A DNA stretch of 64,000 bases from Victivallis lenta (GTDB lineage Bacteria; Verrucomicrobiota; Lentisphaeria; Victivallales; Victivallaceae). The stretch lies in the NCBI RefSeq assembly GCF_009695545.1, contig NZ_VUNS01000003.1, positions 186,001-250,000 of the forward strand, in the 5' to 3' direction. The notes beneath the pieces were generated by a model. That model did no database searches, was not told the origin of the DNA, and saw only the letters and a list, made by a program, of their open reading frames with translations. A program made the position numbers and the translations under genes. Shown one piece after another: positions 4,029-12,837 of the stretch (its first letter is position 1; the number at the start of each line of letters is the position of its first letter).

Positions 4029-4246
4029 GCAAAAAAATAAAAAAATTATAACCAGCTGCATACGAGGATAATACTGTGTTCATTAGCTAGTGTTTTCTTG
4101 TCTGAAGACTCGAAAAACGGTAGAAAAAAACCGGAAAAAATTCCGGAAAATTTCTTAACGCTTCATAAAAAGGTGGGACAGGCGCCCGGGGACAGACCAT
4201 GGTGGTTCAGTTTCCAGCGCCGAAACACAAGAAAGGTTGTGAAGCG

Positions 4247-6172
4247 ATGAGCAAGGAAGTGAAGGCGATTATCTACGCTCGCCAGTCGTCGGGAGATGAT
4301 GATGTCTCTGCAAGTGTGGAACAGCAGGTGAAAAATTGCCAGCAGTTGGCGAGGGAGTGCGGCTATTGCGTGGTGGGAATCTTTCGGGATTTGAATATAT
4401 CCGGCAAATTCTACCCCGATACACCAGGCGCAAACACCATTTGCAATTTTGATATGGCACTCCGCAACTGGGCGGCTTCCACCTCGTCGATGCAGATTCG
4501 CTTCCGGCAGGGATTGGGAGAGGCATTTGCCATGCTTAAGGAAATAGATTTCATTCTTCTGGATGATTTCACCCGGCTGATGCGTCCTCTGCCGAACAGT
4601 TATCTGGAAGGATACATGAAGCAGGAATTGATCTGCAACAAAGTCAAGCTGCATTGTGTCAAGGGGGGAATCGCTGATCCGAATTCTTTTGGGGACAATA
4701 TCGTCTCTTCTCTGATCTCCATGATCAACGCCAATCAGCTTGAGATCCAGCGGCAGAAAAGCAAGGCGGCATTGAAAAAACTCAAGGACGACGGTTACAG
4801 GCCTTCGGGCGCTAACATGCGGGGGTATCGCAGGATTGGCAAGCATAAGTATGAAATCGTTCCGAAAGAGGCTGATTTCATCCGGGAGGCTTTTGCAATG
4901 GGAGTCGCCAACTTCTCCTACATGGCGATCTGCCGTAAACTCAGCAAGAAATACGGGATTCATGATCTGCACTATGACACCCTGATCCCGATCTACCAGC
5001 GCCCTGAATACGCAGGGTATTGCTATAACTCGGAGGGAGAATTGATCGAGTCAAAATGCTTTGGTTCCATCCCGATCGTTACCCTCTCCCAATTTCTCCA
5101 GATGAAAGAGCGGCTCCGGAATAAACGTATTCACAACCACGACCGGAAGCACATCTATGCCTTTACTGGATTGTGTTACTGTGGCTACTGTGGAGAGCGG
5201 ATGCAGATTGTGTCCTGTAACGCAATGCCGCATTCACTGGAAGCCGGATGTCGGCTGTACTACTTTGGATGTGTCAGGAACATTTATCGAGAGCATTCCC
5301 GTGATTGTGGAAAATCGCGAATCCGTTACAGTTACCCGTTCCCTTTCGGCTGGCGAGTTCCGCCGGAGCGCTGGCCTGTAACGCAGAAAACATTGGACTC
5401 ACCCAGGCCGCCAGTTCCTCCCGATTTGTACAATATCGGATTACGGGAATCTCTGCTGGCGTTGATTGTAAAACCGTTGCTCGAAGAGCAGAAGCGGTTA
5501 TTGTACGGCAGCAGTAATCTTGACGTTAAGATAAACCGTCTTGAACAGGAAAAAGAGCGTATCATGAGCCGTCAGAAAACGCTCGCGAATATGTTTCAGC
5601 GGGGCAGTATTCCGGACGAGCAATTTGAGCAGCTGTCAAGAGATCTGAAAAACTCCATGGAAAAGATCAGGAGTGAGCTCCTTGAACTGACCGCGACAGC
5701 CTGTGTTGACCAGAAAAAAGTGCTGGAGGAACTGAAGTTGCAACTTCATATGCTTCAGGCTGTCAAGAATGTTGAAGACAATCTGTATAAGAAACATGCG
5801 CAACAGCTGATCGAACGGATCAATATCTTTGCATATCACATTGAAATCTTTTTCCGGAACGGCAAGTCTTTTATTCTGGAACGGATTCCCAGATGGGGGG
5901 CAAGGATTATGCCGAACTGGAACTTTGTCATGCGGAGAAACAAGGCTTACATCAAATACTACTACAAGAGCTTTTATCAGGGGGACGAGCGAGAACGGGT
6001 TCTCTACGATGACAAGACGATGAATATTGTTGCGGTAGGGTGTAATCCTCGTCCTAAAGCATGGGCAGATTCTCCGAGTCGCCGTTGGAACTGGCGCACG
6101 CAGGAGATAAGTGACACCTTCCCTCTTGAGAGCACCGGAGGCCAGTCGTTTGAGGATTCGCATACCGAATAA
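4247..6172 (+). CDS. Large serine recombinase (integrase of the element)
   Basis: 641 residues from ATG 4247; an in-frame ATG at 4199 would add 16 residues without homology. The N-terminal resolvase domain (about 1-150) has the catalytic serine context IIYARQSSGDDD followed by SVEQQ, and the arginine-bearing DDFTRLMR. Next comes the recombinase domain (about 195-300; RPEYAGYCYN), a zinc ribbon (CYCGYCGERM and later cysteines, about 325-350) and a long coiled coil (about 425-530), the arrangement of phage and ICE serine integrases. Such enzymes join attP and attB through a 2-bp staggered cut and need a directionality factor to excise. Its position at the element border inside a split target gene fits this role. 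No obvious directionality factor is visible beside it. Confidence 0.93.
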   Translation: MSKEVKAIIYARQSSGDDDVSASVEQQVKNCQQLARECGYCVVGIFRDLNISGKFYPDTPGANTICNFDMALRNWAASTSSMQIRFRQGLGEAFAMLKEIDFILLDDFTRLMRPLPNSYLEGYMKQELICNKVKLHCVKGGIADPNSFGDNIVSSLISMINANQLEIQRQKSKAALKKLKDDGYRPSGANMRGYRRIGKHKYEIVPKEADFIREAFAMGVANFSYMAICRKLSKKYGIHDLHYDTLIPIYQRPEYAGYCYNSEGELIESKCFGSIPIVTLSQFLQMKERLRNKRIHNHDRKHIYAFTGLCYCGYCGERMQIVSCNAMPHSLEAGCRLYYFGCVRNIYREHSRDCGKSRIRYSYPFPFGWRVPPERWPVTQKTLDSPRPPVPPDLYNIGLRESLLALIVKPLLEEQKRLLYGSSNLDVKINRLEQEKERIMSRQKTLANMFQRGSIPDEQFEQLSRDLKNSMEKIRSELLELTATACVDQKKVLEELKLQLHMLQAVKNVEDNLYKKHAQQLIERINIFAYHIEIFFRNGKSFILERIPRWGARIMPNWNFVMRRNKAYIKYYYKSFYQGDERERVLYDDKTMNIVAVGCNPRPKAWADSPSRRWNWRTQEISDTFPLESTGGQSFEDSHTE

Positions 6173-6904: not shown

Positions 6905-7462
6905 ATGGGGTACACGACAAGAAAGTCATTATTAGAAGAAATTCGTAGCGGAAACAATATTTCCTGGTTTGAGTTTGAACAAACTTATCGACCGCTTATT
7001 CTTTTAAGAGGCCAAGATTATAAACTCTCCGACTTGGAAAAAGAAGAACTTTGTCAACAAGTGTTACTCGACGTTTTTAAAGGAAGTTCGAATTTTCAAT
7101 ACAATCCCGAAAAAGGGCGTTTCCGGGACTATCTGCGTCAGTTAATTTCTCACAATGCCATTGATATCATTCGACGACGAAAGCCTTCAGAATGCCCCGT
7201 CTTTACGGAAACCGAAGACCTTTCATTGGAGTCGCAATGGGATCAAGAATGGACTCAGCACATTTTGAGTCAGGCATTGTTTAAACTTCGTGCGGAAATG
7301 AAACCTTCGCTTTATCAGGCCTTTCATTTGTACGCAATCGAAGGCAAAACCGCCGGAGAAGTTGCACACTTCTTAGGGATAAGAAAAAGTACCGTTTACG
7401 TAATAAAGAGTCGTGCCGTTGCCCGGTTGAAGCAAATCATAAGTAAAATTCAAGACGCATAA
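6905..7462 (+). CDS. ECF-type RNA polymerase sigma factor
   Basis: 185 residues. Region 2 is visible as WFEFEQTYRPLI and GRFRDYLRQLISHNAIDIIRR; region 4 as GEVAHFLGIRKSTVYVIKSRAVARL, the helix-turn-helix that reads the -35 box. No region 3 lies between them, which is the ECF layout. It heads a tight operon: 2 bp before a small Cys-rich protein that has the place and size of an anti-sigma remnant, which in turn overlaps a kinase gene. By analogy with planctomycete and lentisphaeral ECF/kinase pairs, the kinase may control the sigma factor. Target promoters are unknown. Confidence 0.88.
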   Translation: MGYTTRKSLLEEIRSGNNISWFEFEQTYRPLILLRGQDYKLSDLEKEELCQQVLLDVFKGSSNFQYNPEKGRFRDYLRQLISHNAIDIIRRRKPSECPVFTETEDLSLESQWDQEWTQHILSQALFKLRAEMKPSLYQAFHLYAIEGKTAGEVAHFLGIRKSTVYVIKSRAVARLKQIISKIQDA

Positions 7463-7464
7463 CC

Positions 7465-7671
7465 ATGAAGCATTATACCACGTATGAACTCGATCAGTTC
7501 CGAAATAGGAATGGCTCCTTGTTGGGGCGAATTCGGTGTTGGTTTCATTTGCTGCATTGTTCAAAGTGCCGAAAGCGACTTGTATTATTGCAGAAGGACG
7601 ATAAGCTGATTCGTGATTTGAAAAGGGTGCTTCAATTATTCGAACCGAAGGAAAAAGCCTTACGCAAATGA
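7465..7671 (+). CDS. Small Cys/His protein, possible anti-sigma zinc-finger domain
   Basis: 68 residues with start ATG 7465. A single HLLHCSKC segment (about residues 30-37) resembles the H-x3-C-x2-C core of zinc-finger anti-sigma factors (ZAS/zf-HC2). The rest is basic helical sequence, with no membrane helix. It starts 2 bp after the sigma gene and its stop overlaps the kinase start (ATGA), so the three genes are translationally coupled. The order sigma, zinc finger, kinase suggests that the ZAS domain was separated from a membrane anchor now supplied by the kinase. This role is inferred from order and motif only. Confidence 0.6.
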   Translation: MKHYTTYELDQFRNRNGSLLGRIRCWFHLLHCSKCRKRLVLLQKDDKLIRDLKRVLQLFEPKEKALRK

Positions 7672-9296
7672 AGATTTTCGATTATGAACTGATTCAAAAA
7701 TGCGGTTCCGGTGCATACGGAGAAGTCTGGGTTGCTCGTACCCGCACCGGAAAGCTTGTTGCGCTGAAAATCATTGAAAAATCCGCGCAAATTTCCCGGG
7801 AGTTTGCCGGTTTGCGTAATTACTCCAGAGTTTCGGAGTTTCGATACTTGATTCGGGTTTTTCACGTAGGGGAGTCCGAAAACAAGTTATACTACATCAT
7901 GGAACTGGCCGATAATCTCGGTACTGCGGAAGAGTACGTTCCGGCAACGCTTGAAAACGTATTGAAAAAGAAAGGTCGCCTTTCTCCTCAGGAAATCATT
8001 TCAATCGCGCAGAAAATCCTTCGGGGAATCTCCGTATTACACAACGCAGGATTGGTACACCGCGATATCAAGCCGGAAAATATTTTGTTCGTAAACGGAA
8101 TCCCCAAGCTTTCCGATATTGGGCTGCTTCGTTCGGTTTCGCAAACGCTTACGGTAGGCGGTACGCTTGGGTTCATTCCCCCGGAAAGGATTTCTTACGC
8201 TTCATCGGAGAGAACCACCACCGACGATTTGTATGCTTTGGGAAAAGTGCTTTATTGCTGTCTTACTGGGAATAAGGTTGAAGAATGGCCTACGTTTCCC
8301 GGCACTCTTGTAAACGATGATTACCGGAAGCTGAATCGGGTAATTCTTACGGCTTGTGCAAAGAGTCGGCTTCAACGGTTTAAATCTACGGAAGAATTTG
8401 AAAACGCTCTGAACTGGGGAGTCCCGAAACGGAAATATATTTTTGCATGGTTGCGGTATTGGTACTGGATTGGCGGAGCAATAATTGGCGCAGGGTTTTT
8501 CTTTTCCGGAATTATGTTTCAAAACCAACACGAAACCGCTCCCCCACCGGAAGAAAAGCCTCTTGTTCTCGGAGAAATTGCAAATCGCGTAAACTTTGAC
8601 TTTGTTGTTTCTGATGGCACGGATGAACATAACACCGGCTCTTTTGAAGACCCCGTGTACCGGAAATACTCTCCGTTTAAACTGGATAAGGAACCACGCT
8701 TACGAGAAACCGTCTTTATTGATGATTTTGACCGCTGGACGCATTGGGAAAATGAAAACACTCATGGGTTCAATATTTACCGAAACGTTCTTTCGATCGG
8801 GAATCGCGGTACCATTTACTTGAAGCACCCGATTGTAAGCCCTTACGCAATCCGTTTTGAACTTGATTGTTCCAAACTGGTTGGGAGAGTTGGTTTTCGT
8901 GTATCCGCATTCGACCGTCAGAAGCGTGAACGTTCCTATTATCAATTTTCATTGAACGGTTCAGAGAATGGCGAAATAACGCTTCTCCCATTGGAGTACC
9001 AGCCAGAAAATGACCGCAAAATAACCTTCAAACCCATTCGGCAACCCGAAGTCCTTACCGGTTTCCGTACCGTCGAAATGGCGCAAACGGAGCATTTCTT
9101 TCGACTTTATATTGACGGGAAGCTGATGTTGCACGCACCTTCTTTCTTTTTTGGAGGGACGTTTGGAATAAGTGCGGAGCGTGGTTCTGTTCGAGAAGCG
9201 GTTCATATTCGAAATCTTCGAATCTTTCAAATCAAATTTACGCCGGGGTGTCCGGAGGAAAGACAGTACCATCTCCCCGACTTCAAAAAAAATTGA
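7668..9296 (+). CDS. Membrane Ser/Thr kinase with C-terminal beta-sandwich sensor-like domain
   Basis: 542 residues. Kinase domain about 5-255: CGSGAYGEVW loop, VALKII lysine, VHRDIKPENIL catalytic loop, DIG in place of DFG, GGTLGFIPPERI, and DDLYALGKVLY. One membrane helix at about 265-285 (WIGGAIIGAGFFFSGIMF). The outer part (about 340-530) starts with FIDDFDRWTHW and looks like the LamG/3-keto-disaccharide-hydrolase-type beta sandwich (DUF1080-like), a fold that binds sugars or proteins. Overlap with the preceding gene is 4 bp. The kinase presumably senses something outside the cell and acts on the sigma-factor branch. Past the stop, the +1 frame stays open to 9438 after an A8 run at about 9286, so a frameshifted longer product cannot be excluded. 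Confidence 0.85.
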   Translation: MKIFDYELIQKCGSGAYGEVWVARTRTGKLVALKIIEKSAQISREFAGLRNYSRVSEFRYLIRVFHVGESENKLYYIMELADNLGTAEEYVPATLENVLKKKGRLSPQEIISIAQKILRGISVLHNAGLVHRDIKPENILFVNGIPKLSDIGLLRSVSQTLTVGGTLGFIPPERISYASSERTTTDDLYALGKVLYCCLTGNKVEEWPTFPGTLVNDDYRKLNRVILTACAKSRLQRFKSTEEFENALNWGVPKRKYIFAWLRYWYWIGGAIIGAGFFFSGIMFQNQHETAPPPEEKPLVLGEIANRVNFDFVVSDGTDEHNTGSFEDPVYRKYSPFKLDKEPRLRETVFIDDFDRWTHWENENTHGFNIYRNVLSIGNRGTIYLKHPIVSPYAIRFELDCSKLVGRVGFRVSAFDRQKRERSYYQFSLNGSENGEITLLPLEYQPENDRKITFKPIRQPEVLTGFRTVEMAQTEHFFRLYIDGKLMLHAPSFFFGGTFGISAERGSVREAVHIRNLRIFQIKFTPGCPEERQYHLPDFKKN

Positions 9297-9388: not shown

Positions 9389-9416
9389 TTGACAAAGCTC
9401 TTTTTTATGGTAGATT
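9389..9416 (+). promoter_or_regulatory. Sigma70-like promoter before the structured leader
   Basis: TTGACA at 9389-9394, 16-nt spacer, TAGATT at 9411-9416. It lies between the kinase operon and the hairpin region 9491-9636 and could start a leader transcript that runs into the Nmad3 gene. Confidence 0.45.
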
Positions 9417-9490
9417 GATAAAAGGAAGTCGTTCGTAAACCTTAAAAAGAGATTTGGGAAAATGTTAAAGTAACATTTTTTACAACTGGC

Positions 9491-9636
9491 GTCGCTCAGA
9501 ACTACCACTCTACTATACGCCAAAAGATGAATGCCGTTGTAGGGCGCTTGCGTTTTGCAGGCGTACCTGCTCGCATGATTCATCTTTGGCTGTGGTAGGC
9601 CGTGAGCGACCGTGTGTAACAGGTACGCCTTCTTTT
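9491..9636 (+). ncRNA. Candidate structured RNA with nested stems and alternative terminator-like pairing
   Basis: Non-coding stretch between the kinase and Nmad3 genes. Nested pairings: GTCGCTCA 9491-9498 with TGAGCGAC 9603-9610; TACCAC 9503-9508 with GTGGTA 9592-9597; GCCAAAAGATGAAT 9519-9532 with ATTCATCTTTGGC 9578-9590 (one bulged A); GCAGG 9557-9561 with CCTGC 9566-9570. In addition AGGCGTACCTG at 9559-9569 is perfectly complementary to CAGGTACGCCT at 9620-9630, which is followed by the T-rich TCTTTTATTTTT. The second pairing excludes the inner hairpin or forms a pseudoknot with it, as in attenuators and riboswitches. No known family was recognised. It may regulate the following gene or be a free RNA. 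Confidence 0.55.
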
Positions 9637-9686
9637 ATTTTTAATGAGGGCGCACCGTAAACCATAGCAAGTAAAGGAGCTACGCT

Positions 9687-10493
9687 ATGAAGTTTGTCCT
9701 GAGTCGCAAAGGAGCCGATTCCCAGTTCGGAGGAAAGCCCAGTCCGGTCTTGCCTGATGGTACAATGCTTTCGCTGCCCATCCCGGAGCAGAACACTGCC
9801 GGTGTTATGTTTGATTCCAACAGAAAGTTTGAAGACCTTGCTTTGCGTGGTTTTTCGGGACTTTCGGGATATTACCACCTTGATCCCGATATTCGCAAAG
9901 AACTTTACAAGTCCGTTCCGGAAAACTGGGTACCGTGTTTTGGACAATGCGACGCAGCGCAAACTCACCTTTCCAACAACGAAATCGGGGCAGGGGACGT
10001 ATTTTTGTTTTTTGGTTTGTTTCAAAAAGTGGACGAGCACTTCAACTATACCGGAAAGCCGTTTCATGCGCTCTGGGGTTACATGCAAGTTGATAAAGTG
10101 ATTTCCGACCCGGAGGAAATAAAAGAGTATTCCTGGCACCCCCATGCACAGGAGCGTTATCAGGATAAAAGCGTTACCAACAACACCCTTTACGTCGGTA
10201 GCGAGTTCCTTTCGTTCGGAGAAGGTAAACTTCCCGGCTACGGAGTCTTTAATTGGGACGACCGACTTGCCCTTACAAAGAAAGATTCCGATTGCCTTAC
10301 GCACTGGGATTACGAATCGATTCCCTGGGTAAACAAGGAGTCGGGACAGTGCAATATGACTTACCATACTGCGGAAAGCAGTTTCTGCCCGGAATATTTT
10401 CAAAGCGCAAGCCGAGGACAGGAGTTTGTTATTACGGAAAGTGCAACTCCCGTGGTCGAAAAAAGATTGTTGGAAATTCTTTTGAAAGACTGA
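9687..10493 (+). CDS. Nucleotide-modification-associated domain 3 (Nmad3) family protein
   Basis: 268 residues, ATG 9687 with AAAGGAG upstream. The N-terminus MKFVLSRKGADSQFGG, then PSPVLPDGTMLSLPIPE, is the signature of the Nmad3 family as I remember it (a domain often found near DNA-base-modification and phage-conflict genes). Later conserved parts are FGQCDAAQTHLSNN and GDVFLFFGLF. No catalytic mechanism is established to my knowledge; a role in binding or processing modified nucleotides is a family-level inference. The next gene starts 5 bp after the stop, so they form an operon, downstream of the structured RNA. Confidence 0.75.
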   Translation: MKFVLSRKGADSQFGGKPSPVLPDGTMLSLPIPEQNTAGVMFDSNRKFEDLALRGFSGLSGYYHLDPDIRKELYKSVPENWVPCFGQCDAAQTHLSNNEIGAGDVFLFFGLFQKVDEHFNYTGKPFHALWGYMQVDKVISDPEEIKEYSWHPHAQERYQDKSVTNNTLYVGSEFLSFGEGKLPGYGVFNWDDRLALTKKDSDCLTHWDYESIPWVNKESGQCNMTYHTAESSFCPEYFQSASRGQEFVITESATPVVEKRLLEILLKD

Positions 10494-11895: not shown

Positions 11896-12837
11896 ATGGC
11901 TGAAATGAAATTTTATTGTCCAGTTTGTGGCAAACATATTGCTGCAGATGATTCTTTAAGAGGGGTAAAAGTGGACTGCCCGCATTGTAACAAAGAAATT
12001 ATTGTTCCGCAAACTATTCCGTTTGACGACAAAAATTCCTATGAGCTAAAAGAGATAAGACTGTCTGCACCTTTAAAAGATGTCAGAACGATCAAGTCGG
12101 GTGAAAAAGTATGTCCATTCTGCGGAGAGGCAATAAAGGAAGAAGCAATTTTCTGCAGATTCTGCAAAAAGGATTTAATTGAACAAAAGAAAATCAAGTT
12201 TATTTGTCAATACTGTGCAGAAGAAGTTGAAATTGAAGATAATCAAGATAAAGAAGCTTTTTGTCCCTTTTGCGGACAAAAACTATCAGTAAGGAATAGT
12301 TTTCCGCAGAATATAAGAGAAACGAATTCCGTGAAAATACAATCAATAAATTATTCCCCATTGAATCTTTCTCTCTTCCAATATTTCTTGCAAGCAGTTA
12401 CGAAGAAATATTGCAATTATAAGGACCGAGCACGTAGAAAGGAATTTTGGGGAACAATGCTTTTTTTAACGTTTTTTGGCGTTCTTTCCAGGCTATTTGC
12501 TATAGTCGGAACAGCCACTCATGACGAAACTCTTATTAATTTGGGGGCTGTTATAACTTTTCTATTTTCTTTGGCAACGATTGTTCCGCAAGCCTGTGTT
12601 TTGTCAAGGCGTGCAAATGATATTGGACTGAATGGTTTCACCCTTATGGTAGTTTCACTATGCATCGGAGGATTAACAATTTTGAATTCAATTATAACGC
12701 TTTGCGAAATAGAGAATAACATTCTTCCTGTTTTTTTAACTATTGTGGGATACTTATGGGGAATCGTTTTCATTGTAATTGGTTGTATTAGAGGACAAGA
12801 AGGCGAAAACAAATATGGAGCTGACCCATTACAATGA
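11896..12837 (+). CDS. Zinc-ribbon protein with DUF805 membrane domain
   Basis: 313 residues from ATG 11896 (GAAAGGAAAAG upstream). Three ribbons: CPVC...CPHC (about 9-35), CPFCGEAIKEEAIFCRFC (about 75-92) and CQYC...CPFC (about 103-130). The C-terminal 150 residues match DUF805: YKDRARRKEFWGTMLFL, then RRANDIGLNGF and four hydrophobic helices. DUF805 proteins are small bacterial inner-membrane proteins without a settled function. It is a relative of the protein at 11212. The next gene overlaps its stop by 4 bp. Confidence 0.75.
   Translation: MAEMKFYCPVCGKHIAADDSLRGVKVDCPHCNKEIIVPQTIPFDDKNSYELKEIRLSAPLKDVRTIKSGEKVCPFCGEAIKEEAIFCRFCKKDLIEQKKIKFICQYCAEEVEIEDNQDKEAFCPFCGQKLSVRNSFPQNIRETNSVKIQSINYSPLNLSLFQYFLQAVTKKYCNYKDRARRKEFWGTMLFLTFFGVLSRLFAIVGTATHDETLINLGAVITFLFSLATIVPQACVLSRRANDIGLNGFTLMVVSLCIGGLTILNSIITLCEIENNILPVFLTIVGYLWGIVFIVIGCIRGQEGENKYGADPLQ

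Follow-up and report, generated by a model that had tools for sequence, protein, structure and literature searches.

The window, a 64,000-nucleotide stretch of a Victivallis lenta contig, contains an intergenic region between a protein kinase gene and a gene with an Nmad3 domain (Pfam accession PF18754). This region holds a promoter-like sequence, an A-rich leader, a rod-shaped fold, a downstream segment complementary to part of that fold, and a T-run (Table 1). The helices of the rod are named P1 to P4, counting up from its base, and the two complementary strands are named X and Y.

Table 1. Features of the Victivallis lenta locus (window coordinates; z values are from the swap test described in the text)
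Feature	Position	Strand	Basis and details
Intergenic region, 390 nt	between protein kinase gene (7668-9296) and Nmad3-domain gene (9687-10493)		
Sigma-70-like promoter, TTGACA-N16-TAGATT	9389-9416	+	sequence; -10 ends ~70 nt before the RNA
A-rich 5' leader with purine-rich GAAAGGA-like motif near the predicted start	9423-9486	+	sequence; a similar motif occurs upstream of homologues
Rod-shaped fold, followed by segment 9620-9630 and T-run	9491-9610	+	
P1 5' strand (partner 9603-9610)	9491-9498	+	fold; z 19.4
Conserved RAA 5' of P2	9499-9501	+	among 33 representatives, A at -1 in 33/33 and at -2 in 32/33
P2 5' strand CUACCAC (partner 9592-9598)	9502-9508	+	compensatory variants; z 11.3
One-sided bulge at P2/P3 junction, usually UUY first	9509-9518	+	fold; conservation counts
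P3 5' strand (partner 9578-9590)	9519-9532	+	fold; z 15.6
P4 apical hairpin (putative state A), X within its 3' arm	9539-9570	+	z 12.4
P4 arms	9539-9551/9557-9570	+	fold
X strand, common to P4 and the long-range helix	9559-9569	+	fold; family comparison
P3 3' strand	9578-9590	+	fold; swap test
P2 3' strand GUGGUAG and conserved GC	9592-9600	+	fold; swap test
P1 3' strand	9603-9610	+	fold; swap test
Y strand, partner of X in putative state B	9620-9630	+	perfect 11 bp; conserved family-wide
U-tract directly 3' of Y	9630-9642	+	Y-to-U-tract gap 0 or 1 nt in 119/124 elements
Shine-Dalgarno AAAGGAG	9674-9680	+	sequence
Nmad3-domain gene, first gene downstream of the RNA	9687-10493	+	PF18754, E 1.9e-55

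A sequence-only reading of this DNA had described four nested stems and a perfect 11-base complementarity between the innermost hairpin and a downstream segment. Both are present at the positions claimed: X (AGGCGTACCTG) is the exact complement of Y (CAGGTACGCCT), and TTCTTTTATTTTT then follows. The RNA (9487-9642) folds at -65.7 kcal/mol, compared with a mean of -45.3 kcal/mol (sd 4.1, z -5.0) for dinucleotide shuffles, none of which (0/200) folds as well. P4 alone (9539-9573) contributes a hairpin of -20.1 kcal/mol. In calculations that ignore pseudoknots and co-transcriptional kinetics, the rod has an energy of -61.2 kcal/mol with P4 and -37.3 kcal/mol without it, and X:Y has an energy of -19.8 kcal/mol; P4 is thus favoured over X:Y in the window by ~4 kcal/mol before any pseudoknot cost. 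Formation of X:Y while P1 to P3 are kept needs a pseudoknot. The minimum-energy fold also includes a closing stem, P0 (9488-9492/9626-9630), which we rejected as a chance pairing (swap test z 0 to 1.2).

The promoter-like sequence noted upstream in the sequence-only reading is likewise found, and comparable sites precede the homologous RNAs described below. These sites resemble TTGACA/TTGAAA-N17-TATATT and mostly lie 65-90 nt upstream of P1. A promoter score of at least 9 is reached by 60% of homologues and by 34% of mononucleotide shuffles. Many elements also carry a purine-rich motif (GAAAGGA/AGGAAAGG) near the predicted transcription start (window 9420-9432, also locus L153). No leader open reading frame was recognised by eye at this motif in the upstream sequences, and no consistent start codon follows it.

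Distribution of homologous RNAs

DNA similarity searches identified only the window copy in its own genome and none in relatives, phages or plasmids. Relatives were at first found by covariance models alone, for which the E-values are rough. A model built from the single window sequence identified divergent copies within the same family, including one directly upstream of another Nmad3 gene, where the order of sigma factor, kinase, RNA and Nmad3 is the same as in the window. With a model of eight sequences, we identified the RNA in at least 57 of 137 genomes of the window's order. A model of 42 sequences (in which one row repeats an included element read on the wrong strand) extended this to at least 105 of 388 sampled genomes of the phylum, representing at least 47 of 198 genera, and to at least 32 of 393 sampled genomes of Bacteroidales, the order of Bacteroides salyersiae. 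These counts are lower bounds, as few candidates per genome were scored. The window's own genome contains six copies. An exact-pattern scan recovered the RNA from Victivallis, other Lentisphaeria, Kiritimatiellaeota, Prevotella, Bacteroidales and B. salyersiae; viral contigs and phage and plasmid collections gave no match with the queries used.

The sequence-only reading recognised no known RNA family in the structure, and comparison with Rfam 15 agrees for the members tested. No family matched the whole window or the window locus (E up to 10), 14 homologous loci (gathering thresholds) or two homologues (E up to 1), the only hits being tRNAs or chance matches. Bacteroidetes or human microbiomes have been scanned for candidate structured RNAs (e.g. 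Weinberg 2010, PMC2864571; Fremin and Bhatt 2021, PMC8040213), and the RNA reported here is the same kind of object as the candidates catalogued there. A table in Weinberg 2010 lists one Acidobacteria/Lentisphaerae motif (PMC2864571), and the main text of Fremin and Bhatt 2021 does not mention Lentisphaerae, Verrucomicrobia or methyltransferases (PMC8040213). We found no description of the RNA in the open-access full-text literature, and supplementary motif catalogues may hold an earlier, unnamed prediction. The original observation is real and larger in extent than first noted. The RNA appears to represent a large, undescribed class of gene-control RNA in numerous bacteria, from the gut and from the environment, of two phyla. 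Roughly one in four sampled genomes of the window's phylum carries it, as do 8% of the Bacteroidales species sampled, among them the cultured B. salyersiae, in which one copy was found.

Genes downstream of the RNA

A same-strand gene typically starts 20-60 nt after the element (median 46.5 nt; within 80 nt for 85 of 132 elements; 48 nt in the window), with gene starts chosen by a simple rule and no gene finder. The downstream genes are mutually unrelated and share no common pathway. They encode SNase-type nucleases, membrane proteins with N-terminal zinc ribbons, ankyrin, Sel1 and MORN proteins, and DNA methyltransferases of the EcoRI, C5, Dam, type III and type ISP types. Restriction proteins of the GmrSD and HNH kinds, Nmad3 and a trypsin-like protein are encoded after other copies, as are UDP-glucose dehydrogenase, sulfatases and pyruvyl transferase; surface-polysaccharide genes are among the targets. 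Our impression, from a Pfam survey of the downstream genes alone, is that DNA-modifying genes are enriched. PADLOC classified several of the downstream genes as defence or restriction proteins and did not recognise Nmad3.

The sequence-only reading had presented the structure as the leader of an Nmad3 gene. Two of the four Nmad3 loci in the order do carry the RNA, at distances of 48 and 45 nt, and yet the remaining two lack it even with a sensitive model, and more than 100 copies precede other genes. These observations refute an exclusive association and make a leader specific to Nmad3 genes scarcely tenable; the Nmad3 link is incidental. Using Nmad3 relatives as search anchors gained few loci.

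Some neighbouring genes recur. In at least three loci, the RNA has as neighbours the genes for zinc-ribbon proteins, an ECF-like sigma factor and a Ser/Thr kinase, in differing order (window 6905-9296; L009 5987-8658; L024 3249-5934). A small cysteine-containing protein is encoded between the sigma factor and the kinase in the window and L009, and a similar one directly follows the RNA in L109. Downstream of Nmad3, the window encodes a DUF805 protein with N-terminal zinc ribbons (11896-12837); in L091 a comparable protein is encoded immediately after the RNA. A large serine recombinase gene upstream of the window locus (4199-6172) perhaps marks the end of an integrated element. Tandem duplications of an RNA and its gene were observed in L070 (4967-6872, reverse strand), L153, L114, L071 and L078; they include a recent 923-bp repeat with 99% identity, and one SNase copy is truncated.

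Covariation and mutually exclusive pairings

Alignments of RNAs this variable tend to be biased towards the model behind them, and we therefore assessed the pairings with an alignment-free swap test. This test measures how complementary the 5' strand of a helix is to its own 3' strand and compares the result with the 3' strands of other members, here among 33 mutually dissimilar members. All four rod helices scored well above swapped partners (Table 1), as did X:Y (z 14.1, and 16.9 in a second swap analysis; range 14-17). The 5' arm of P4 is also complementary to the exact X strand above swapped partners (z 7.7). A model that does without X:Y gave 51 further loci, and the pairing is present in 47 of them (z 16.4); the 51 are mostly new Bacteroidales loci and include a few members that had already been used in the 42-sequence model. 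A covariance search thus yielded homologues with compensating changes both in the stems and in the 11-bp pairing. Some members additionally have a weaker local hairpin that uses Y, upstream of the U-tract (z ~4.5).

P4 and X:Y exclude each other through their shared strand, and both are conserved. Since X pairs with both the P4 5' arm and Y above chance, both exclusive states have been kept, and the earlier proposal of alternative pairings of the attenuator, riboswitch or pseudoknot kind is strongly supported. Each of the X:Y pairs 3-7 occurs as five or six different standard pair types in family-wide counts. Under neutral scoring, X:Y contains 177 G.U pairs and 23 A.C mismatches. This excess of G.U over A.C implies that the transcribed strand, and not double-stranded DNA, is under selection.

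The P2 strands mostly read CUACCAC/GUGGUAG and have many compensated variants, including UUACGAC/GUCGUAA, CUGGUAC/GUACCAG, CUGCAAC/GUUGCAG and CUAGCAC/GUGCUAG. The unpaired bases around P2 are strongly conserved, with RAA before and UUY after its 5' strand and GCU before and GC after its 3' strand; the two A residues of RAA and the GC are near-invariant. The outer stem, P1, varies freely in sequence.

A DNA-level explanation, in which the structure is a mobile-element inverted repeat, a MITE or an attC-like recombination site, would account for a long imperfect palindrome with dispersed copies, some of them in tandem or at contig ends. We consider it very improbable. The strand-specific excess of G.U pairs, the lack of sequence conservation at the outer ends and the fixed position before genes all argue against it, as do the strong divergence of the other copies from the one found by DNA search and the absence of matches to the queries used in the phage, plasmid and viral collections. 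Three specific versions were rejected. Integron attC sites carry conserved outer R boxes and come in arrays of cassettes, whereas P1 varies freely here, and the copies are mostly dispersed, the tandems examined being duplications. A MITE or insertion-sequence end would require near-identical dispersed copies, in contrast to the single DNA-level copy in the genome. A broader cassette or mobile-element reading was prompted by the tandem and contig-end copies; the repeats that we looked at turned out to be promoters and ordinary tandem duplications of the RNA with its gene.

Expression platforms and possible regulation

Computation shows a conserved structure, exclusive covarying pairings, a promoter-like site, a U-tract and a position before genes. 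An intrinsic terminator consists of a GC-rich stem directly before a U-tract. X:Y has this arrangement, with mostly G-C pairs adjoining the U-tract, but its stem is long-range; no simple local terminator was found in the window. Across the family, the mean stabilities of P4 (-17.3 kcal/mol) and X:Y (-18.8 kcal/mol) are near equal. Pairing of X within the rod is firmer at its 5' end (0.8-1.0) than at its 3' end (0.56-0.7), and an emerging Y could start pairing at this loose 3' end.

Nine Bacteroidales members that lie close to methyltransferase or restriction genes have a second platform (six recognised from the computed fold and three from the sequence itself). In these members no U-tract comes after Y. 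Instead, its 3' half starts a second hairpin with a U-tract at its end, so that X:Y covers the 5' arm of this predicted terminator and would prevent termination. It is difficult to account for two opposite platforms that share X, Y and P4 unless the RNA is a switch. Alternatively, the local Y hairpin could be the true terminator in some members, with X:Y then acting as an antiterminator everywhere.

We consider it probable that the RNA represents a new class of cis-acting transcription-attenuation leader that controls the accessory gene that follows. The mechanism that we infer, including termination and switching themselves, the ON and OFF assignments and the presence and kind of an input, would operate as follows. 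The promoter would yield a ~215-nt transcript that folds into the P1-P2-P3 rod topped by P4, and the conserved unpaired bases around P2 (RAA, UUY, GCU and GC) look like a sensing site. In state A, P4 would be closed, with X hidden and Y single-stranded; in state B, X would leave P4 and pair with Y. In the window, as on the common platform in general, X:Y directly before the U-tract would act as a terminator, making state B OFF and state A ON. On the Bacteroidales platform, the 3' half of Y would form the 5' arm of the downstream terminator, making X:Y an antiterminator and state B ON. An input that binds the P1-P2-P3 core (a metabolite, a protein or another RNA) would bias the choice between the two states.

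The RNA could instead be a constitutive terminator with a pseudoknot, or a small RNA in its own right that simply stops at its terminator, the next gene being expressed by leak-through or from another promoter. This would also be consistent with a ~215-nt unit that has its own promoter-like site and a terminator-like end, and with conservation of X:Y beside the U-tract. This reading is unlikely, as the conserved P4 competes for exactly the X strand, the gene usually starts a short distance downstream, the downstream gene differs in most loci and the platform is inverted in some members. Because opposite platforms keep X:Y, a regulated switch fits better than a constitutive terminator.

The family shares with riboswitches a conserved structured domain in the 5' leader and mutually exclusive pairings, the latter as pairing potential and covariation only, and the RNA is possibly an orphan riboswitch. 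In a strict metabolite or second-messenger riboswitch, the core around P2 would be a small-molecule aptamer that needs no protein. The roughly ten conserved unpaired nucleotides flanking a covarying helix, the two opposite expression platforms, the occurrence in two phyla and the placement of two tandem elements before one gene would suit this reading, as would multiple copies with unrelated targets, which resemble those of signalling-nucleotide riboswitches. We put it forward tentatively, since the downstream genes suggest no ligand and a protein-binding leader would look alike.

Protein-dependent attenuation, in which an RNA-binding protein or an RNA-polymerase-bound factor reads the P1-P2 core and tips the balance between P4 and X:Y, draws on the same helix covariation and conserved core. 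Its unrelated accessory targets would resemble the regulons of specialised elongation factors. We regard it as conceivable rather than probable: no candidate factor was found, and among the RNA-rich genomes with a NusG match, five (G114, G025, G103, G111 and G101) contain a single one, so that a specialised paralogue is not required. The small-molecule and protein readings are sub-cases of the attenuation leader proposed above, and the confidence placed in each overlaps with that placed in the leader.

The GGUAG within P2 and the several polysaccharide genes among the targets prompted us to consider control by a NusG paralogue, as in ops/RfaH or LoaP systems. We rejected it on account of the covariation of P2 together with the single NusG match in several RNA-rich genomes.

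In the preQ1, fluoride, ZTP and similar classes of transcription-terminating riboswitch, a pseudoknot engages the expression platform. The RNA resembles these in its leader position, exclusive pairings, conserved unpaired core and a strand that overlaps a terminator arm. It differs from them in its architecture, in being an orphan with no known ligand and no Rfam match, in its unrelated accessory targets and in the occurrence of both polarities. Classical attenuators depend on a leader peptide or a protein. They also place a terminator against an alternative hairpin in the leader; in contrast, the family described here has no leader open reading frame recognised at the purine-rich motif and no regulatory protein found, and is common to unrelated genes. 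Processive antitermination leaders (ops/RfaH, LoaP hairpins, put RNA and EAR) similarly precede surface-polysaccharide and other accessory genes, and P2 can read GGUAG. However, P2 covaries here, and GGUAG is thus no invariant signal; NusG paralogues are not enriched, and the terminator-like end lies inside the RNA element.

If the attenuation-leader reading is correct, one RNA device would regulate unrelated accessory genes, including DNA methyltransferases, restriction enzymes and nucleases, the dosage of which can be dangerous. It may be, although we advance this with reserve, that the family is a new riboswitch class in at least two phyla that links restriction-modification, DNA-modification, nuclease and surface genes to one RNA-sensed cue, through the same sensor with opposite outputs. 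An orphan switch of this kind, with its alternative pairings known, is directly testable.

Two tandem RNA elements lie upstream of one gene in several Bacteroidales loci (L220 1135-1657, L219, L221, L224 and L264). In the tandem pairs before DNA methyltransferases, a first element of ~235 nt with a terminal U-tract is followed by a second one on the inverted platform.
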